Below, in pieces: positions 1,730 through 27,146 of a stretch of 27,758 nucleotides of DNA; position 1 is the first letter of the stretch; the number at the start of each line of letters is the position of its first letter. Where the stretch lies: positions 1 to 27,758 of the IMG/VR virus record IMGVR_UViG_3300042939_000072; one strand, 5' to 3'. The position numbers and the translations under genes are program-made. This stretch comes from a virus. A model generated the notes under the pieces. It was not told the origin of the DNA. It ran no database searches and worked only from the letters and a program-made list of their open reading frames with translations.

Positions 1730-2281
1730 ATGATTTCGTTTTTGCTCATCGTTGCTGCGGCAGCGATGTTCTTCGGCATCGACGCGGACAAACTCAAGGC
1801 ACTTCTTGAGGCAGTCAAGCCGCACGTCGATTACCGCAAGTTTCTTGGTCTCGGCCTCGTCTGCCTAGCGTTGCTCATGCTGCCTTCGTGGGGTCGCAGC
1901 AACGTGCCTCCGCAGCCGTTGCCAGACACCGGGCCGCTCTCGCTGGAGGGAGACTTCCGTGGTGAAACAGCCAGCCAAGACGCAGCGACCGTTGGTTGCC
2001 TCCTGACCGAACTGGCCGATGAACTTGAGTGGGACGGTTCGCTCAGCGAACCGTTCTACGTCACTGGGTCGCAGATCGACCAACTCCGCAAGACCTCCCG
2101 CATCCTTCGCTGTCGAGGAGAAAGCATCGGCGATCGCCAGCCAGCCGCACGCGACAAGATCGCTGAGTATCTGGAAGTCCATGTTGGCACGGATGGCGGT
2201 CCACTGACGCCAGAGAGCCGCGATGCTTGGGTGTCGGCGTTCCGCGATGTAGGGAGGGCGGCAAGTGACGCAGCGCAGTAA
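1730..2281 (+). CDS. Membrane protein of unknown function, possibly part of a lysis cassette
   Basis: The 183-residue protein begins with a hydrophobic segment (MISFLLIVAAAAMFFGI, 1-17). A second transmembrane-like stretch lies near 38-52 (FLGLGLVCLALLMLP), with a short amphipathic region between them (KLKALLEAVKPHVDYRK). The rest is soluble, acidic and Ala-rich, and is followed by the gene for a membrane-anchored protease. GAGG at 1717-1720 lies 9 bases upstream of the ATG and is an acceptable ribosome-binding site. It overlaps the next gene by 17 bases. Two N-terminal membrane segments next to a hydrolase would fit a holin-like role, but there is no family match to prove it. Confidence 0.6.
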   Translation: MISFLLIVAAAAMFFGIDADKLKALLEAVKPHVDYRKFLGLGLVCLALLMLPSWGRSNVPPQPLPDTGPLSLEGDFRGETASQDAATVGCLLTELADELEWDGSLSEPFYVTGSQIDQLRKTSRILRCRGESIGDRQPAARDKIAEYLEVHVGTDGGPLTPESRDAWVSAFRDVGRAASDAAQ

Positions 2282-3389
2282 CGGGTCGTGGACTCTTTCG
2301 GCCATCTCCTTCGTCATCTTTGCGGCGGCTCTCGGCACGTTGGTCAGCCGATACGTCGGAATCCTTGCTGATCGTGTCGAGAACAACTTCGGCTATCTGC
2401 CAGACCCTGAAGGCACGGCTGAGTTCCTTGGGGAACTCGACCAGCCAAGATTCGCACAGGCTGGCAAGGACTGCATGGACAACGTGGTCAAGCAGGACAC
2501 GTTTCTTTACCGCTACGCAGACGAGGCTCATCGGTCCGTCTACGGCAAGCCGTTCACAGCGTGGGACCAAGGCTCCGCTGGAACCTGTGTCTCGTTTGGA
2601 TGGGGGGTGGGCTCCTACATCGGGCAGTCTGTGTCGTGGAAGCAGGGAGAACTTCCAGCCCCACCGAAACTGGTCGCGACCGAACCGATCTATGGAGGGA
2701 GTCGCACGCTTGCTAGGCTTCCTCCCGTCACGTTCGCAGGATACAGCGACGGATCATACGGTGCTGCCGCTGCCAGATGGGTGGCTGGCCGATGCAAAGA
2801 CAAGGAAGTCGGAGGCATCCTGTATCGGGAGGTCATTGGCAAGTACGACCTGACCCGCTACTCGATTGAACGCTCCCGTGAATGGGGAGCGAACGGGCCA
2901 CCGCGAGAGATCGCAACCGCTGCATCCAACCATCGTGCGCTCGCCGTGGCACAGGTTTCGACGTGGGACGAGTTGGTTGCTGCGATCACGTCAGGGTATT
3001 GCGTCCCGATCTGCTCAGACGTTGGATTCGCCGCCACGAAAACTCGAGACAAGGATGGCTTCCTTCCTCGCGGCGGCAACTGGTCTCACTGTATGTGCTG
3101 CATCTCAATTCGCTTCGCGGACGGTCCCGGGAAGCGTGACGGAGTTCTGATCCTCAACTCGTGGAACACCACATGGGTGAACGGGCCGAAGTGGCCCGCT
3201 GATCAGCCTGACGGTTCGTTCTGGTGTTCGCGGGCTGATATCGAAGCGATTCTTCGTCAGGGCGATTCGTTCGCGATTGGTGGCGTGTCTGGATTCCCTT
3301 GGCGAAAACTGGAGCATCGAGAATGGATGTCGCCGTCTCCGCAGGCGTCGAGCCGCGAGTCAACGATCAACCACGCGCTCGCACTGTGA
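2265..3389 (+). CDS. Membrane-anchored papain-family (C1-like) cysteine protease
   Basis: The 374-residue protein carries the catalytic signature of a papain-fold cysteine peptidase. Gln102 in WDQGSAGTC matches the oxyanion Gln, with Cys108 as nucleophile. His275 in GGNWSHCMCC is the general base, and Asn298 in LILNSWNTTW matches the usual NSW motif. One hydrophobic helix at about 11-29 should anchor it in the membrane or act as a signal-anchor. The GTG start at 2265 overlaps the upstream stop, as is common in this operon. It sits among small membrane proteins, so it may act as a lytic enzyme, a virion protease or a host-surface-cleaving enzyme. C1A-type proteases are unusual among phage lysins, which are more often NlpC/P60 or CHAP members of the broader papain-like fold. 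Catalytic assignment is firm; role is inferred. Confidence 0.75.
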   Translation: MTQRSNGSWTLSAISFVIFAAALGTLVSRYVGILADRVENNFGYLPDPEGTAEFLGELDQPRFAQAGKDCMDNVVKQDTFLYRYADEAHRSVYGKPFTAWDQGSAGTCVSFGWGVGSYIGQSVSWKQGELPAPPKLVATEPIYGGSRTLARLPPVTFAGYSDGSYGAAAARWVAGRCKDKEVGGILYREVIGKYDLTRYSIERSREWGANGPPREIATAASNHRALAVAQVSTWDELVAAITSGYCVPICSDVGFAATKTRDKDGFLPRGGNWSHCMCCISIRFADGPGKRDGVLILNSWNTTWVNGPKWPADQPDGSFWCSRADIEAILRQGDSFAIGGVSGFPWRKLEHREWMSPSPQASSRESTINHALAL

Positions 3390-6317: not shown

Positions 6318-6950
6318 ATGAACATCCGCAACCGCGTCAAAACGCTCCGTATGGTCCCTGCCAGCGACCTCCGGCCCAACCCCAAGAACTGGCGAACGCA
6401 TCCCAAGGCACAGCAAGACGCCTTGCGTGGTGTGCTGTCGGAGATCGGGCTGGCGGATGCCTGCCTCGCACGGGAGTTGCCGGATGGATCGCTGATGCTG
6501 ATCGACGGGCATCTCCGCGCGGAGACGCTTGGAGACGGAGACGTTCCTGTGCTGGTGCTGGACGTGAACGAAGCCGAAGCAGACAAACTCCTTGCGACCC
6601 TTGATCCGCTGGCTTCCATGGCGGATTCCGACGCCGCACGGTTTGAGGAACTGCTTCACACGGTGAACACCAGTAGCCAAGCCTTGCAGGAGTTGATCGC
6701 GGAGACTGCCAAGCAAGCCGGTCTGTACGAGAATCTGGACGAGCCGGAATCGGAGGAAGCCGAGCCGAGCGAAGGCGATGATTCCACCGATCCGCCTCCG
6801 AGCGGCGTCCGGATGGTGCAGTTGTTCCTTGACGAGTCGACCATCGACGAGTTCCAGGACTCTTGCACCAAACTCGCGGAGGAGTACGCGACCGAGAACA
6901 TTACCGACACGGTTCTGGAGGCTGTGCGACGTGCAAGTGCATCACTGTAA
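6318..6950 (+). CDS. ParB/sulfiredoxin-fold (ParB-like nuclease domain) protein
   Basis: The 210-residue protein opens with a ParB-like N-terminal domain: DLRPNPKNWRTHP (17-29), a short helix (AQQDALRGVLSEIGL), then LIDGHLRAET (61-70). The last motif is the counterpart of the ParB GERR box. It is followed by VPVLVLDVNEAEADKLLATLDPL, typical of phage and methylase-linked ParB-like proteins. The second half is acidic and Ser/Glu-rich (about 125-160), ending in a small helical domain. Such proteins occur in phage DNA-modification gene clusters and near terminases, where they may nick or bind modified DNA; Iyer and colleagues noted ParB-superfamily genes beside TET/JBP genes. The start ATG at 6318 is chosen because the domain begins right after it. 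It overlaps the next gene by 20 bases. Confidence 0.8.
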   Translation: MNIRNRVKTLRMVPASDLRPNPKNWRTHPKAQQDALRGVLSEIGLADACLARELPDGSLMLIDGHLRAETLGDGDVPVLVLDVNEAEADKLLATLDPLASMADSDAARFEELLHTVNTSSQALQELIAETAKQAGLYENLDEPESEEAEPSEGDDSTDPPPSGVRMVQLFLDESTIDEFQDSCTKLAEEYATENITDTVLEAVRRASASL

Positions 6951-7857
6951 GGCGAAGTTCGACGCGGACCACCTTGCCGGGACAAAACTGGATGAGTCGC
7001 ACTACGACGTGCTGCTCGGCGGTGATGAACCTTGCGACGTGTTCAAGCCAGACGGAACACCGCTGGTCAAGTACCGTCCGCAGTGGTTCAGCAGCGAGTT
7101 GTGCCGATCCGTCCTGCCAGCGTGCCGAGCCGCAGCCACCGAGACCGACCAGCGTGGGCTGGCGGCTGGCGACCTTTCCACAGTCAAACTGCGGAAGCGT
7201 GACGCCGCGTTGCAAGGACCGCACGGCAAGACAAGCCTGCGAGCCATCAAGACTGATGGCACGGTCAGCAACACCACGCGAGCAGGGCTCGTCAACAGCG
7301 GCATCATCGGCTACTTCGACAGGAGCGCACGGTATCCGTTCTGCAGGCAGACTTCCTTCGTGATCAAGGAGGCTGCATCGTGGAAACGGTTCCTTCCGTA
7401 CATCGAGCGAGCCGACGAAGGATTCCGCGAGTTCATGCCGGATCGCTGGTCAGCACAGCGTGAATACTCGAGCCGCACGGCATCGGACTGGGTGATTCCG
7501 CAAAGCACGTTCACAACGGTCACGGTCAACAAGAACTTCCAGACCGCGACACACAAGGACGCTGGAGACCTTGCGTGCGGCTTCGGCGTGATGTCCTGCC
7601 TGCGGAACGACAAGTACGACGGAGCGCATCTCGTGTTTCCGGCGTACCGCGTCGCGGTCAACCTCGGTCACGGCTGCCTGTGTCTCGCAGATGTGCATGA
7701 GTGGCACAGCAACACGTCGTTCACACGGATGCGAGTCGGCTACGAGCGGATCACGCTGGTGTTCTACTACCGAGAGAACATGATCCACTGCAAAGACGCG
7801 AAGGCAGAAGTGAACCGCGTGAAGAACCGCAAGAGAGGGGATCCGCTGCACCGATGA
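6931..7857 (+). CDS. TET/JBP-family 2-oxoglutarate, Fe(II)-dependent DNA base dioxygenase
   Basis: The GTG start at 6931 gives 308 residues. The protein has the family hallmarks in order: GYFDRSARYPFCRQTSF (127-143), then FTTVTVNKNFQTATHKDAGD (194-213) with the iron-binding HxD pair His208/Asp210. LVFPAYRVAVNLGHG follows, then LADVHEWHSN (252-261) carrying the distal iron His (His256 or His259). Last come Arg273 and the strand YERITLVFYYRENM, where the Arg would bind 2-oxoglutarate. These enzymes hydroxylate the 5-methyl of thymine or 5-methylcytosine in DNA. All ligands look intact, so it should be active. It sits between a ParB-like gene and a glycosyltransferase, a known type of phage hypermodification neighbourhood. 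No cytosine methyltransferase or pyrimidine hydroxymethylase is visible, so the substrate is undetermined. Confidence 0.87.
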   Translation: MQVHHCKAKFDADHLAGTKLDESHYDVLLGGDEPCDVFKPDGTPLVKYRPQWFSSELCRSVLPACRAAATETDQRGLAAGDLSTVKLRKRDAALQGPHGKTSLRAIKTDGTVSNTTRAGLVNSGIIGYFDRSARYPFCRQTSFVIKEAASWKRFLPYIERADEGFREFMPDRWSAQREYSSRTASDWVIPQSTFTTVTVNKNFQTATHKDAGDLACGFGVMSCLRNDKYDGAHLVFPAYRVAVNLGHGCLCLADVHEWHSNTSFTRMRVGYERITLVFYYRENMIHCKDAKAEVNRVKNRKRGDPLHR

Positions 7858-8723
7858 AAGTTTTTGTTTTCACCTACGACCGCTACGACTCAATCAGCAC
7901 GCCGCTGCTGCTCGACAAGAGCAACGTCCCTCACGTTGTCTTGTGCCACAGCGAGGAGTCGCGGAAGCGGTTCGTTGACGGCGGCAGGGTCAAGCAGGAA
8001 AACATCGTCGCCACCAAACAGCCGAAGGGGCTGGCGAACAACCGGAACGCCGCACTCGACATGATGGACGATGGTGAGTGGGCTGTGTTCTTTGTTGACG
8101 ATTTGAAGTCCGTCACGGAACTGCGCGACTACGACGCGAGGAAGTCCACCCGCCTCGGCATTTCGATGGACAACCAATCATCGTTCAAGGGGATCTTTGC
8201 CAAGGAGATCCCGCTCAGTCAGTTCATGCGGCGTGCGTATGAAACCACCGCAGCCTGCGAAGGCGTCGGAGCCAGCCTCGGCGGCTTCTGCGGCATTTCC
8301 AACTCGGTCTTTCGCGATGCCAAGTGGCGGTTCAACGTCCTTGCCGATGGGCGAGCGTGGGTCGTGAAGAAAACATCGCTCCGCTTCGACACCAACGCTC
8401 AACTCATTGACGATCTGTGCTGGACAGCCCGCAACATACAGCGGTTCGGTTGCGTGGTTGTGAATCAGTGGGTGCTGCCAGACTGCAAGCGATACACATC
8501 CGGGGCATACGGAAGCATCGAGCAGCGGATGCCGCAGAAACTCAAAGAGGCTGCCCACCTTGTGAAAACATATCCATCCTTGATCCGCATCGCGGATAAG
8601 GCTGGATGGCCGCGTGGTAGTCATGTTGTGCTTAAGAGAACGCTGAACAACAAGCAGATCGCAGCGTGCGAAGCCGCTGTCATCTCGGCGACTCGCCGTT
8701 TCGCACCTCCCCCTCCGTGGTGA
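7854..8723 (+). CDS. GT-A-like glycosyltransferase linked to the TET/JBP enzyme (TAGT-like)
   Basis: The 289-residue protein begins at an ATGA overlap with the dioxygenase gene, so the two are probably co-translated. It opens with a Rossmann-like strand and loop VFVFTYDRYD (3-12), typical of GT-A enzymes. KGLANNRNAALDMM (58-71) follows, then AVFFVDDLKSV (77-87), where Asp82-Asp83 replace a DxD. This order (TxxR, GLxxxRN, DDD-like) resembles the TET/JBP-associated glycosyltransferase (TAGT) family described by Iyer and colleagues, but exact membership needs a profile search. Its likely job is to transfer a sugar to 5-hydroxymethyl pyrimidines made by the neighbouring dioxygenase, protecting phage DNA from host nucleases. 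No membrane segment is present. A virion-protein glycosyltransferase is the alternative. Confidence 0.72.
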   Translation: MKVFVFTYDRYDSISTPLLLDKSNVPHVVLCHSEESRKRFVDGGRVKQENIVATKQPKGLANNRNAALDMMDDGEWAVFFVDDLKSVTELRDYDARKSTRLGISMDNQSSFKGIFAKEIPLSQFMRRAYETTAACEGVGASLGGFCGISNSVFRDAKWRFNVLADGRAWVVKKTSLRFDTNAQLIDDLCWTARNIQRFGCVVVNQWVLPDCKRYTSGAYGSIEQRMPQKLKEAAHLVKTYPSLIRIADKAGWPRGSHVVLKRTLNNKQIAACEAAVISATRRFAPPPPW

Positions 8724-10795: not shown

Positions 10796-12639
10796 TCGCA
10801 CCGAATCATCAGCATCGAATCCTGTGGCTCCCTGACGGAGAGGAGCGAATGTTCGACGATGACGCTCCAAGCCGCTCGTCGGCTGGCGTTCGCATCACGT
10901 CCAGCAACGCTCACCAAGTATCGGTCGTGTTTTCCTGCCTCCGCGTGATCGCGGAGACGGTCGCGAGCCTTCCGCTTCATGTGTTGGAGCGAACCGCTGG
11001 TGGAGGCAAGCGGATCGCCAAGGAACTCCCGCTGTATCGCCAACTGCACTCGCAACCGAACGGCTGGCAAACGTCCTTTGAGTGGCGAGAGCAGGCTGTG
11101 TTCCACGTCGGACTGTGGGGAAATGCCTTCTCGGAACTCATCCCCGGCCAGATCGTTCCTCTCCATCCGTCGCGGATGAAAACGGAGCGTCTCGAGAACG
11201 GCAAACTGCGATACAAGTATCGCGAGGAAAAAGGAACGGAGACGGTCTACGACGAAGCCAAAATCCTCCAGATTCGTGGCCCGTCTGATGACGGCGTGAA
11301 CGGGTTGTCCGTTGTCGAGGAGTGCAAGGACGCGATCGCGTTGGCTCGTGCGTGCGAACTGCACGGAGCAAGGTACTTCGCTGCTGGAGCGCGTCCAGGC
11401 TTCGTCCTCTCCACGGAAGGGCAACTCAACGCCGAAGCCCGCGAAGCCCTCCGGTCGCAGTGGGATCGTCGGCACGGTGGAGTCGGCAACAGCCACAACA
11501 CGGCGGTCCTCACTGGTGGTCTCAAGCCATACGAGGTTCCGCAAGCAACCAACACCGACAGTCAGTTCATCGAACTTCGTCGCTACCAGTTGGAGGAGAT
11601 TGCGAGACTGTTTCGCATTCCCGGCTCGCGGCTCGGCCTTGCTCCCGACACTCCAGAGGCTGACATCGCGTTCGTCACGCACTGCATCATTCCTTGGCTC
11701 CGAAGGTTTGAGTCCGCGTTCACTCGCGACCTTATCGGAGACGATGACCGGTACGTTGTTGAGTTCGACGTGCGAGGCTTGCTCCGTGGCGATGCCGCAA
11801 GCCGCTCAGCGTTTTACCGTGCGATGTGGGACATCGGCGTGGTCAGCACGAACGACATTCGGGCCGACGAGAACATGGACCCCGTTGAAGGCGGCGACGT
11901 TCGCTACCGTCCGCTCAACATGGGAACGCTCGGTGAAAACCCATCCGCGAACGACGTGCTGGCACAGCAGCAGCCGGGAAGCGGGATCGACGGGCAGGCT
12001 GTTGAGGGCGGGCTTGATGCCGCCGCAGCGGAGGAGCCAGTTACTCCGTCCGAGCCAGAGGCTCCGCAGGTTGCGGACGTGTCGCTCAATGGAGCGCAGA
12101 TCACAGGCCTCATCGCAATCCTCTCGCAAGTTCCTGCCGGTCTCTTGACCAAGGAAGGAGCAGCGGCACTCATCGCTGCTTCGTTCCCAAGCATCTCCGA
12201 TGCTCAGGTCACTGCGATCCTCGCGGGGGTGTCGGCTGTCAATCCAGCAGGCAGCGTGCAGCCTCAGCAGGCCGCTCCTGCCGCAGCCGCTCCGCTTGGT
12301 CGCTCGCTCCCTGAGTCGCGGGCGATGACGATCAGCATCGACTTCGACCGCACGTTCTCCGCTGATCCGCAGATGTGGGGCGAGTTCGCCAAGAAGGCAG
12401 TCGCGGACGGCAATACCGTCGTGATGATTTCCCGCAGGCCAGAGTCAGATCGAGAGGAGGTGATCTCATCTCTCGGCGACTACGCCGAGTCGTTCTCGCA
12501 AGTGCTGCTCGTCGGCGGCGAAACGCTGAAGGCTGACGCCGCCGACGCCGCTGGAATCAACGTGGACGTATGGGTAGATGACTCACCGCAGACGATCACG
12601 GACAAGCAAGTCAAGCGGGTGGAAGATGGCGAAGTATGA
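10792..12639 (+). CDS. HK97-type portal protein fused to a C-terminal HAD-like phosphatase domain
   Basis: Residues about 30-400 of this 615-residue protein are an HK97-family portal: SVVFSCLRVIAETVASLP near 44-61, a wing region with LHPSRMKTERLENGKLRYKY, and the crown/stem region ending in NEDIR-like TNDIRADENMDPVEGGD. The ring forms the DNA channel. A linker with LNGAQITGLIAILSQVP follows, an extension seen in other portals. From residue 512 a HAD-superfamily domain appears: SIDFDRTFSADP (Asp517/Asp519 nucleophile pair), VVMISRRPE (Ser547, motif II), Lys580 (motif III) and VWVDDSP (Asp596/Asp597, motif IV). All four motifs are intact, so it may be a phosphatase or nucleotidase. An in-frame ATG at 12325 begins exactly at this domain and could also give a separate 104-residue protein. 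The fusion is unusual. Confidence 0.88.
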   Translation: MIAPNHQHRILWLPDGEERMFDDDAPSRSSAGVRITSSNAHQVSVVFSCLRVIAETVASLPLHVLERTAGGGKRIAKELPLYRQLHSQPNGWQTSFEWREQAVFHVGLWGNAFSELIPGQIVPLHPSRMKTERLENGKLRYKYREEKGTETVYDEAKILQIRGPSDDGVNGLSVVEECKDAIALARACELHGARYFAAGARPGFVLSTEGQLNAEAREALRSQWDRRHGGVGNSHNTAVLTGGLKPYEVPQATNTDSQFIELRRYQLEEIARLFRIPGSRLGLAPDTPEADIAFVTHCIIPWLRRFESAFTRDLIGDDDRYVVEFDVRGLLRGDAASRSAFYRAMWDIGVVSTNDIRADENMDPVEGGDVRYRPLNMGTLGENPSANDVLAQQQPGSGIDGQAVEGGLDAAAAEEPVTPSEPEAPQVADVSLNGAQITGLIAILSQVPAGLLTKEGAAALIAASFPSISDAQVTAILAGVSAVNPAGSVQPQQAAPAAAAPLGRSLPESRAMTISIDFDRTFSADPQMWGEFAKKAVADGNTVVMISRRPESDREEVISSLGDYAESFSQVLLVGGETLKADAADAAGINVDVWVDDSPQTITDKQVKRVEDGEV

Positions 12640-13642
12640 CCATATCGACTTCGCTCCTCCCGCTGGCGTTCGCAGCGAAGCAGCCAAGGGTCTTGAGTGG
12701 CGTGATGAGTTCAACCGTGGAGGCACGGCTGTCGGCGTGGCTCGCGCCCGCGATCTCTCCAATGGCACGAACATCTCTCCTGACACGGCGAAGCGGATGG
12801 CGAGTTACTTCGCCCGCCACGAGGTGGACAAGAAGGGACAGGGATGGAGCCCCGGCGAGGACGGGTTCCCGAGTGCTGGCCGAATCGCGTGGGCTCTGTG
12901 GGGAGGTGATCCGGGACAAGCGTGGGCAAACAAACTGACCAAGCAGATTGAAGCAGCAGACAACGCAAACAGGAGCATGATGATGAACATTGAACGGCGG
13001 TCACTTGCGATTGACGAGATCGAATCCGACACTCCGCTGCTCGCCGTCGAGATGCGAAGCGAGGAAGGCAGCGATGAGGCTCGCGAGTGGATTGTGGGGT
13101 ATGCGGCGAAGTTCGGCGTTCTTTCGCTGGACTTGGGCGACTTCGTGGAGAGGCTTGACCCCGGTGCTTTCAATCTTGTGTCTGAGCGGCGTGGACGCAA
13201 GAAGCCGCTCCAGACCCGTGCGCTGTGGAATCATGATCCGAACTTCCCGCTCGCTCGCTATCCCGAAACTCTGAAACTCACCGTGGATGACGTTGGGCTG
13301 CGGTACGAGTTCCCCGTCCCTGACACGTCCTACGGCAAGGACATCGCCGCGAACGTTCGGGCTGGAATCGTCCGTGGTTCTTCCTTTGCCTTCCAAGTCG
13401 GCACGGACGGCGACGAGTGGAGCGTGGAGGACGGACGCAGCGTGCGGACGATCAAACGAGTTGACTCGTTGATCGACGTTTCGCCAACGACGTTCCCGGC
13501 GTACCCCGACTCCGACGTTGCGGTGGCAAAGCGGTCCTACGACTCGTTTCAGCAGTCGTTGTTCGCGAATCGCGAACGCCGCACGATTGCAGCGTCGAAG
13601 GCGAACGAACTCCGCGAGTATCTCAAAAAGCATGGCCGCTAA
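12626..13642 (+). CDS. Prohead protease (HK97 S78 type) with an N-terminal extra domain
   Basis: The ATG at 12626 gives 338 residues. Residues 1-110 are a separate conserved domain (KGLEWRDEFNRGGTAVGVAR; ISPDTAKRMASYFARHEVDK; SAGRIAWALWGGDPGQAW), known from other phage head proteins and of unclear function. Residues about 125-310 are the serine protease: EWIVGYAAKFGVLSLDL, ERLDPGAF, then LWNHDPNFPLARYPETLKLT with catalytic His203. GIVRGSSFAFQV with the nucleophile Ser (252 or 253) follows, and then VSPTTFPAYPDSDVA. It cleaves the capsid delta domain during head maturation. An internal AGGAG 7 bases before an in-frame ATG at 12983 lies exactly between the domains. The gene overlaps portal by 14 bases and the next gene by 11. 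Confidence 0.9.
   Translation: MAKYDHIDFAPPAGVRSEAAKGLEWRDEFNRGGTAVGVARARDLSNGTNISPDTAKRMASYFARHEVDKKGQGWSPGEDGFPSAGRIAWALWGGDPGQAWANKLTKQIEAADNANRSMMMNIERRSLAIDEIESDTPLLAVEMRSEEGSDEAREWIVGYAAKFGVLSLDLGDFVERLDPGAFNLVSERRGRKKPLQTRALWNHDPNFPLARYPETLKLTVDDVGLRYEFPVPDTSYGKDIAANVRAGIVRGSSFAFQVGTDGDEWSVEDGRSVRTIKRVDSLIDVSPTTFPAYPDSDVAVAKRSYDSFQQSLFANRERRTIAASKANELREYLKKHGR
12971..12985 (+). promoter_or_regulatory. Internal ribosome-binding site within the prohead protease gene
   Basis: AGGAG at 12971-12975 is followed by three consecutive in-frame ATG codons at 12977, 12980 and 12983; the third lies at an ideal 7-base spacing. It would start a protein of about 219 residues that is just the S78 protease domain. 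This suggests that both a long form and a short form are made. Confidence 0.55.
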
Positions 13643-13915: not shown

Positions 13916-15298
13916 GTGGACAAGATCAAGGCACTGCTGGACGAACTCGCGAAGGTCACCGCTGAGATTCAGGCCGCGATGGAATCGGAAGATGCTCCCG
14001 CCGCCGAAGGCGAAGGCAGCGACCCGGCTGCGATGGCTGCCGAGGAGAACTCCCTCCGATCGCTGATGACCCGTGCCGACGCGATCAAGGCCAAGATTGA
14101 TTTCTTGGAGAAGGTTGCTGAGAAGGAAAAAGAACTTCGTTCCGTGCTGGAGCGTTCCGCTCCTGCCAAGGCGATCGAGACACCCGTGGCGAAGGAGCCA
14201 ACCGTGGAGAAGCGAACCGAGTACGCTGTGCCGAAGCAGCACGACAATCTGCGAGCGTTCCGCTCTGCGGAGGCTGCATACCGCGCCGGTATGCACTTGA
14301 AGGGCTACGTCTTTGGTGACTCCGAGGCCCGTCGGTGGTGCAAGGATCACGGCGTCGAGTCGCGTGCTCAGGCAGGCGGCATCAACAGCCTCGGCGGCGT
14401 GCTGACCAGCCCCGAACTGTCCAGCGAGATCATCCGTCTCGTGGAGGAGTTTGGCGTGTTCCCGCAGTACGCCAAGCGCGTCAGCATGAACAGCGACACG
14501 CTCGTTTTCCCGCGTCGGACCGGCGGTCTCACCGCTCGTCCGGTTGGCGAAAACATCGAAGTCAGTGCCTCGGACGTGACGTTCGACAACGTGGAACTCA
14601 ACGCGAAGATTTGGGGTGTGGCAAACCGCACGCCGAACTCGCTGCTTGAGGACAGCGTGATCAACCTTGCGGACGCGATGGCCGTTGAAACGGCTCAGTC
14701 GTTCAGCGAAGCATTCGACAACTCGGGCTTCATCGGTGACGGGACGCTGGCCTACCACGGCACGACCGGCATCTGCACGAAGATCCTCCAGTCGGCCTAC
14801 TCGGCGAGCGTCGTGACTGCCACGAGCAACACGACCTTCGGCGACCTGACGATGAAGAACTTCACGGACCTCCTCGCTCGGCTCCCGCTGTACGCTCGGA
14901 ACCGGAACGCTCGGTGGTACATCTCTCCGGCTGGCTGGGGTGCTGCGATGCTGCGGCTCGCCATGCTTCCCGGCGGATCGTCTGGTGCTGGTGGCAACTC
15001 CAGCGACAACGTCGCATCCGGTTTCGGCGAGACGTTCCTCGGCTACCCGGTCACGCTGGTGCAGCCGATGCAGTCGGCCCTCACCGGCACGACCGGCACG
15101 GTGGCCGCGCTGTTCGGTGACCTTTCGCAAGCCGCGATCTTCGGTGAGCGTCGAGCCATCTCGATGAAAACCGCCAGCGAGCGGTATATCGAGTTCGATC
15201 AGACTCTCACCTTCGCAACCACGCGCAACGCGATGGTCGTGAACGACATCGGATCGACCAGCAAGGCCGGTCCTGTTGTGGCTCTCAAGTTCGGCTGA
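13916..15298 (+). CDS. Major capsid protein, HK97 fold
   Basis: The 460-residue protein starts at GTG 13916 with AGGAG at 13902-13906, 9 bases upstream. Residues 1 to about 100 are charged and helical (KIKALLDELAKVTAEIQ; EKVAEKEKELRSVLE), matching the delta/scaffold domain that the prohead protease removes. The mature part shows the HK97 pattern: NSLGGVLTSPELSSEIIRLV (N-arm and spine helix), NSDTLVFPRRTGGLTARPVG (E-loop region), IWGVANRTPNSLLEDSVINL, then the A-domain (ARWYISPAGWGAAMLRLAML, GYPVTLVQPM, FGDLSQAAIFGERR). The C-terminus (TLTFATTRNAMVVND) is also typical. It makes the icosahedral shell. Expression should be high, judged from the good ribosome-binding site and the terminator after the next gene. 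Confidence 0.93.
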   Translation: MDKIKALLDELAKVTAEIQAAMESEDAPAAEGEGSDPAAMAAEENSLRSLMTRADAIKAKIDFLEKVAEKEKELRSVLERSAPAKAIETPVAKEPTVEKRTEYAVPKQHDNLRAFRSAEAAYRAGMHLKGYVFGDSEARRWCKDHGVESRAQAGGINSLGGVLTSPELSSEIIRLVEEFGVFPQYAKRVSMNSDTLVFPRRTGGLTARPVGENIEVSASDVTFDNVELNAKIWGVANRTPNSLLEDSVINLADAMAVETAQSFSEAFDNSGFIGDGTLAYHGTTGICTKILQSAYSASVVTATSNTTFGDLTMKNFTDLLARLPLYARNRNARWYISPAGWGAAMLRLAMLPGGSSGAGGNSSDNVASGFGETFLGYPVTLVQPMQSALTGTTGTVAALFGDLSQAAIFGERRAISMKTASERYIEFDQTLTFATTRNAMVVNDIGSTSKAGPVVALKFG

Positions 15299-26381: not shown

Positions 26382-27146
26382 ATGACGCTCGTACTCAAGG
26401 CTGGAGCGATCATTGTTGAAGGTGGACTCCTCGGCGCAGGGCAAGACTGCTGCTGCGGTTCGTCCTCATCGAGTAGCAGTTCGTCCTCATCGAGCAGTAG
26501 TTCGTCCTCATCGTCCAGTAGTTCGTCCTCGTCGAGCAGTAGTTCGTCATCGTCCAGTGACTCGTCCTCGTCGAGCAGTAGTTCGTCATCGTCTAGCAGT
26601 TCGTCATCGTCAAGCAGTGACTCGTCCTCGTCCAGCGGCTCGTCCTCGTCCAGCGGCTCGTCCTCGTCCAGTGGCTCGTCCTCGTCCAGCAGTGGGAGCA
26701 GTTCCTCATCTGCATCCGTGGAATGCACTACCGACGGAGACTGCGGATGCGAGCCTGGATACACCTACTATCCAGAGGCGGCGGGGAGTGGACACAGCGG
26801 ATGCTGCCCGCCCGGATCGTACTATGAAACCGGGCATGGCTGCTGGAATGGCGAGCCCGGAACAGAAACGGCGGCTGGCGAGAGTCGATTCTGCTGCTGC
26901 GGCAAATGCGGGCCAGCGTATCTCCCGCAGCCTGCGTCTGACGGCTCGACTCCGTGCCGAAAGTGCTCGATCTGTAAAGGCGAAGGACACGCTGGCGGGC
27001 CTTTCGCAGACTTCATTTCAATGCTTGACGCATACGCTGCGCTCGGTGTTTCTACGCCACTGTCTGAAGTCCTGTGCAGTGACGGGTTTTATTTTGAAAC
27101 GTGCGAGTTTGAGTTTGACCCAAACAATCCGAACAACTGCCCGTGA
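26382..27146 (+). CDS. Poly-serine stalk protein with a cysteine-rich C-terminal domain
   Basis: The 254-residue protein has a short N-terminal segment with hydrophobic residues (LKAGAIIVEGGLLGAG) and a CCCG motif. A serine tract of about 85 residues follows (27-111), broken by occasional Asp and Gly. The C-terminal domain is Cys-rich (about 20 Cys, in CGCEPGYTYY, CCPPGSYYETGHGC, FCCCGKCGPAYL, CRKCSICKGEG), probably disulfide-bonded or zinc-binding. A stiff, possibly O-glycosylated stalk with a Cys-rich knob would fit a surface-exposed tail-tip protein. The Ser codons alternate between TCN and AGY in 18-21-base units, so the tract is repeat DNA but selected at protein level. No known family is recognised. 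Confidence 0.7.
   Translation: MTLVLKAGAIIVEGGLLGAGQDCCCGSSSSSSSSSSSSSSSSSSSSSSSSSSSSSSSSSDSSSSSSSSSSSSSSSSSSSDSSSSSGSSSSSGSSSSSGSSSSSSGSSSSSASVECTTDGDCGCEPGYTYYPEAAGSGHSGCCPPGSYYETGHGCWNGEPGTETAAGESRFCCCGKCGPAYLPQPASDGSTPCRKCSICKGEGHAGGPFADFISMLDAYAALGVSTPLSEVLCSDGFYFETCEFEFDPNNPNNCP
26460..26711 (+). repeat. Serine-coding tandem repeat (18- and 21-base units)
   Basis: The tract is built of units such as TCGTCCTCATCGAGCAGTAGT (a seven-codon form) and TCGTCCTCGTCCAGCGGC (a six-codon form). They alternate TCN and AGY serine codons, with GAC and GGC interruptions. The period is a multiple of three, so length changes keep the frame. This could vary among related phages by slippage or recombination. 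Confidence 0.75.

Follow-up and report, generated by a model that had tools for sequence, protein, structure and literature searches.

A HAD-type phosphatase domain fused to a phage portal protein is probably swappable cargo of the head

We analysed a window of 27,758 bases, the complete IMG/VR virus record IMGVR_UViG_3300042939_000072, whose portal gene continues in frame into a small haloacid dehalogenase (HAD) domain. This domain is probably a swappable cargo that is cut loose inside the head, rather than a part of the DNA-packaging machine, since in relatives it is attached to the head protease or encoded by a head gene of its own. The head operon has the order terminase small subunit, terminase large subunit, portal-HAD, S78 protease and HK97-type capsid protein (Table 1).

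Table 1. Features of the head operon in the window
Feature	Coordinates	Strand	Basis
Portal-HAD fusion protein, 615 aa	10792..12639	+	Open frame from ATG 10792, stop 12637-12639
Portal core, residues 44-361	10921..11874	+	Pfam PF04860 span
Small helical module, residues 434-480 (NGAQITGLI...)	12091..12231	+	Confident helices in AF2 model of full portal
Conserved island RSLPESRA, residues 504-511; proposed prohead-protease site E-S-R/A	12301..12324	+	Conservation, motif counts
HAD domain, 104 aa, residues 512-615	12325..12636	+	PHROG 4919/4256, invariant residues, AF2
S78 prohead (maturation) protease with extra N-terminal domain, without HAD	12626..13642	+	Peptidase_S78 5.5e-38, residues 141-310
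ERRS in protease N-terminal region, candidate self-cleavage site	12992..13003	+	Near-invariant ERR[SAT] in relatives
EMRS, second protease motif, immediately ahead of S78 domain	13049..13060	+	E-x-R-[ASTV] in 93/96 relatives
HK97-type major capsid protein with long N-terminal delta region	13916..15298	+	Phage_capsid 5.2e-35
ESRA at delta/capsid-fold boundary, presumed maturation cleavage site	14357..14368	+	E-x-R-[ASTV] in 83/84 relatives

The portal-HAD fusion protein

The sequence-only reading had described a portal frame that runs through a linker into about 104 residues with all four HAD motifs, and this was borne out. The open reading frame is uninterrupted, with neither a frameshift nor a stop between portal and HAD, and the motifs are D6-x-D8-x-T10, S36-R37-R38, K69 and D85-D86 (catalytic residues D517, D519, T521, S547, R549, K580, D596 and D597 in portal numbering). 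A frameshift or missed stop between two genes was considered and rejected, because the identical open junction is present in 95 distinct portal-HAD proteins. In Pfam, the fusion protein matched Phage_portal (PF04860, E 9e-87) over the full model (1-321) with 291.7 bits against a curated cut-off of 39.1, and in PHROG it matched the portal family PHROG 12 (1.3e-98). The Pfam search revealed neither a MuF domain (PF04233/PF06152) nor a kinase domain, the N-terminal part being the portal. The AlphaFold (AF2) model of the full-length protein consists of three confident islands, namely the portal core, a helical module and the HAD, with low-confidence linkers between them; the linkers that flank the helical module (392-430 and 484-509) are largely below pLDDT 50.

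The HAD tail gave no match in Pfam, and PDB sequences searched with phmmer and with profiles yielded nothing significant. In PHROG it matched PHROG 4919 (2e-14) and PHROG 4256 (1.5e-13), which comprise small phage proteins with no assigned function. The HAD fold proposed from the letters was supported by structure prediction, as AF2 gave a capless alternating alpha/beta core (pLDDT 93, pTM 0.83). In VIA-align, the top solved structure was the 3'-phosphatase domain of T4 polynucleotide kinase (Z 10.4, 2.7 A, 95 residues), followed by bacterial Pnkp1 and MDP-1, and the best 50 matches (Z 7.6-10.4) were mostly annotated HAD-type phosphatases, dehalogenases or their relatives. An hhalign comparison of the HAD profile with T4 PseT paired R38 with R213 and was not significant (E 0.063 over 22 columns). 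A literature search on the active-site arginine of T4 Pnkp found nothing. Because the likeness to T4 Pnkp is at the level of the fold and the sequence comparison is not significant, a T4 Pnkp-like substrate is only a lead suggested by the model.

Among 46 diverse homologues, mostly 21-53% identical and spanning portal-fused, protease-fused and free forms, D6, D8, T10, R38, K69, W83, D85, D86 and P88 are invariant, and position 36 is Ser or Thr. The median dN/dS of the portal-HADs was 0.15 over 2108 pairs. The codons of the catalytic residues have undergone synonymous changes only, with R38 encoded by both CGN and AGG. These substitution patterns indicate that the portal-borne domain is under strong purifying selection, and we regard it as real, conserved and presumably catalytic.

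Placement of the HAD domain in related phages

The HAD tail was used to search IMG/VR, and in every one of the 80 loci obtained the HAD was in frame with a portal, 49-99% identical to that of the window where the portal core was present. Other portal-HAD fusions, which the sequence-only reading had suggested looking for, thus exist in number: the enlarged set comprises the 95 distinct proteins mentioned above, all with the same junction. Stand-alone homologues were found as well, in the form of small free ORFs with 25-39% identity in the isolated phages 4MG, Motura, phiM6, Bas88 and P59. A scan with this stand-alone family led to a second placement: in 92 distinct proteins the HAD forms the C-terminal end of an S78 prohead protease, with Peptidase_S78 preceding it according to Pfam; a dedicated scan raised the number of such loci to more than 100. 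In a third arrangement, a free HAD ORF overlaps the end of a lambda-family portal gene ahead of the head genes, in an operon that also encodes a GpA-type terminase and a Phage_cap_E capsid protein.

In a tree of the HAD domains, the portal-fused, protease-fused and free head-operon forms constitute one head-associated clade (support 100/94). The portal-fused domains form a subclade (100/99) whose sister is the group of free head-operon genes (96/82), and the protease-fused domains group separately (97/76); four rows labelled free inside the fused clades (L005, L073, L329 and L388) are truncated contigs. No locus had both a portal-HAD and a protease-HAD among 77 distinct portal-HAD types and 65 distinct S78-HAD types, the partner gene being visible and free of HAD in 68 and 61 of these, respectively. 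Judging from these sequence relationships, different carriers bring the HAD into the interior of the head, and explanations tied to the portal vertex alone are therefore weakened. A Foldseek search of BFVD matched A0A2D1GPC3, A0A6J7WUA4 and A0A6J5R419, annotated as head maturation protease or XkdF, and the matches include the head maturation protease of Lactobacillus phage LJ; these annotations suggest that HAD-protease fusions also occur in other phage groups.

The portal C-terminus also carries other modules. Portals 68-91% identical to that of the window have a Tudor-like (Hva1_TUDOR) module, a Zeta toxin, a zincin-like module with HExGH-type motifs, an unassigned module or a short basic tail as alternative ends, and some relatives combine HAD with Tudor or HAD with a zincin-like module. 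A portal 81% identical to that of the window (L183) ends in a Zeta toxin (PF06414, 1.1e-29), preceded by a leader, 'RDCGTGAGGFKPGNKC', that is common to zincin-like tails. HExGH-type zincin-like modules are found at the portal C-termini of L161, L146 and L058, in the last case after the HAD and together with an LPD1-like match below the cut-off (5e-4). In L155, a module of about 200 aa that follows the Tudor module gave no match in Pfam. As far as these sequences indicate, the swapping of tails is the exchangeable effector-module pattern reported for polyvalent and MuF proteins.

The matches in assembled bacterial genomes came exclusively from three Planctomycetota or Phycisphaerales MAGs, and Planctomycetota are therefore probably the hosts of the portal-HAD phages. 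The window itself encodes a Tet/JBP oxygenase (Pfam Tet_JBP 1.8e-21; 6931-7857) beside a weak match to a TET-associated (TAGT-like) glycosyltransferase (7797-8723; 0.01, below the cut-off), a pair suggesting that the DNA of this phage may contain hypermodified cytosines. The proposal that the HAD acts on modified nucleotides does not hold as a general one, because Tet_JBP was absent from most portal-HAD records (13 of 17 longer than 20 kb, some of them fragments) and from all 14 protease-HAD records tested; the 4 records with Tet_JBP among 42, which may be incomplete, were all of the portal-HAD type. Elsewhere in the window are an ORF with an almost pure serine run of about 80 residues, a low-complexity repeat, followed by a Cys-rich part (26382-27146), and an ORF of 374 aa with a papain-like 'DQGSAGTCVSFGWG' motif and no match in Pfam (2265-3389).

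The boundary motif, the protease and the capsid protein

Just ahead of the HAD, RSLPE-x-RA stands as a conserved island in a variable Pro/Ala linker. In 23 diverse proteins, R510 is invariant, and E508 and A511 are conserved in at least 90%. The motif E-x-R-[ASTV] occurs at the portal-HAD join in 76 of 95 distinct proteins (1.1 expected), at the portal-Tudor or HAD-Tudor join in 63 of 66 (0.9 expected), at the boundary between the capsid delta region and fold in 83 of 84 (3.8 expected) and before the protease domain in 93 of 96 (5.9 expected), the expectations being taken from other stretches of the same proteins and the counts not being independent trials, because the sequences are related by homology. 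Four different protein boundaries thus share E-x-R/[ASTV], the slash marking the presumed cut. The capsid protein of protease-HAD phages has it in 6 of 8 cases. Two observations count against the portal as a carrier of cleavable cargo: E-x-R precedes the HAD in 0 of 73 protease-HAD fusions, 59 of which have R[AST] there, and about 20% of portal-HADs have x-x-R-A only (VLATRA, VLAARA).

The S78 protease gene overlaps the portal gene by 14 bases. The N-terminal domain of the protease ('KYDHIDFAPPAGVRSEAAKGLEWR...', 12626-12972) matches PHROG 2859 and no Pfam family, and is missing from many protease-HAD proteins. In the SPN3US phage, the protease cuts one three-residue motif in the capsid protein, the portal and the protease itself (PMC10052503). 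By analogy, and from the distribution of the motif, we infer that the S78 protease frees the portal HAD.

The portal as a possible carrier of cargo

Our best explanation, to which we give slightly more than an even chance, is that the portal C-terminus is a carrier from which the S78 protease frees the HAD in the head, and that the ejected phosphatase acts early in the host. In portal rings the C-terminal tails lie inside the prohead. Each subunit would bear a small HAD phosphohydrolase of the capless type, preceded by a flexible linker and an E-x-R/A site. During head maturation, sites of one kind in the capsid protein, the protease and the portal tail would all be cleaved by the protease, and about a dozen HAD molecules would end up free beside the DNA within the head. 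These would probably be ejected into the host along with the DNA and would serve there as an early-infection phosphatase whose likeliest substrates, as in T4 Pnkp, would be nucleotides or the 3' ends of polynucleotides. Retention in the head, ejection, catalysis and substrate are all inferred. A broader form of the explanation, in which interchangeable HAD, Zeta toxin, Tudor and zincin-like modules on portal or protease are cut at E-x-R/A and delivered with the genome, the HAD being a polynucleotide or nucleotide phosphatase that acts before phage expression, is plausible but somewhat short of an even chance.

The main rival to retention and ejection is that the cleaved HAD leaves the head, as many propeptides do. 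The HAD would then be a transient prohead domain that aids assembly, either as a kind of scaffold or through dephosphorylation or binding of a head protein, and is cut off without being delivered to the host. Released HAD could indeed be lost, because what prohead proteases cut off is as a rule expected to leave the head (PMC10052503), and both its attachment to the protease, a prohead-internal protein, and the head-associated lineage in the HAD tree fit such a role. The HAD, however, does not seem to be needed for assembly, because many close relatives lack it or carry toxin-type modules instead, and its catalytic residues are fully conserved; we consider this rival unlikely. Somewhat less likely still is the proposal of the sequence-only reading that the HAD remains part of the portal ring and has its function at the packaging vertex, for instance the removal of phosphates from DNA ends or from a packaging protein. 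A dodecameric portal would position about 12 copies next to the path of the DNA, the linker in the AF2 model would let them reach it, and the fold is Pnkp-like. The proposal is nevertheless disfavoured, as relatives whose portals lack the HAD have it on the protease or as a free protein, never doubled, and a protease-type motif is conserved at the join.

The remaining two rivals concern the domain itself. That catalysis has been lost and the domain merely binds a ligand or protein would agree with the missing cap and with the fact that no activity is known for PHROG 4919/4256, but D6, D8, T10, R38, K69, D85 and D86 do not vary among portal-fused, protease-fused and free forms, and the purely synonymous changes at the catalytic codons point the same way, making this very improbable. 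The in-frame ATG at 12325 (Met512), from which it had been suggested that a free copy could be made, does stand at the start of the domain in the window, as it does in 50 of 64 relatives. Internal initiation there is nonetheless hardly credible, because 14 of the 64 distinct relatives have CTC, CTT, TTA, CTA or TTG at this position, codons that initiate rarely or not at all, and a Shine-Dalgarno-like 4-mer lies upstream in only 15 of 64.

That enzyme domains occur on portals is already known, and the assertion that portals do not normally carry enzymes was too strong. Iyer et al. (2017) reported PBECR, 2H phosphoesterase and inorganic pyrophosphatase domains on portal or MuF proteins and proposed that such fused domains are packaged and injected (PMC5512222). 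The window protein is likewise an enzyme domain on a portal in a head operon, with a sister portal bearing a Zeta toxin. Unlike in that study, where HAD is unmentioned, a single small HAD is concerned here, which is also found on the maturation protease, and the boundary motif is common to capsid and protease processing sites. In MuF polymorphic toxins, a head protein from the packaging module bears exchangeable enzymatic modules at its C-terminus, for which co-delivery with DNA has been proposed (Jamet et al. 2017; PMC5576092), whereas in the present case the portal itself or the protease acts as the carrier, with no MuF domain. The internal proteins of T4 and the ejection proteins of SPN3US are similarly head-internal and freed by the prohead protease at a shared motif, but they have their own genes and N-terminal propeptides, and the cargo here is C-terminal on the portal. 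The stand-alone proteins of PHROG 4919/4256 belong to the same family by HMM and share the invariant residues; in contrast to portal-HAD, they are free and encoded away from head genes, several of them near genes for nucleotide metabolism or DNA polymerase. With the phosphatase domain of T4 PseT, the portal HAD shares the HAD motifs, including an S-x-R motif II, but it has no kinase domain and no significant sequence match, and its phosphatase activity is presumed. Our literature search returned no paper on a portal fused to haloacid dehalogenase or on a HAD-protease fusion, which is not proof of novelty. In the literature searched, portal-HAD appears to be unreported, and what appears to be new is the HAD itself, the fact that the protease can carry it instead, and the motif common to the boundaries.

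The arrangement would show concretely how an HK97-type phage could fill its head with enzymes that have no targeting signal of their own: the portal or protease would carry them, and the existing maturation cleavage would release them. From it one would expect HAD phosphatases in the virions of many probable Planctomycetota phages, whose proteases should cleave after E-x-R and before A or S. If the broader cargo-release explanation is true, the HAD would act before any phage gene is expressed. If the carrier explanation is true, the portal tail would lend itself naturally to the loading of protein cargo, and a place of action would be found for an uncharacterised family of phage HAD proteins.
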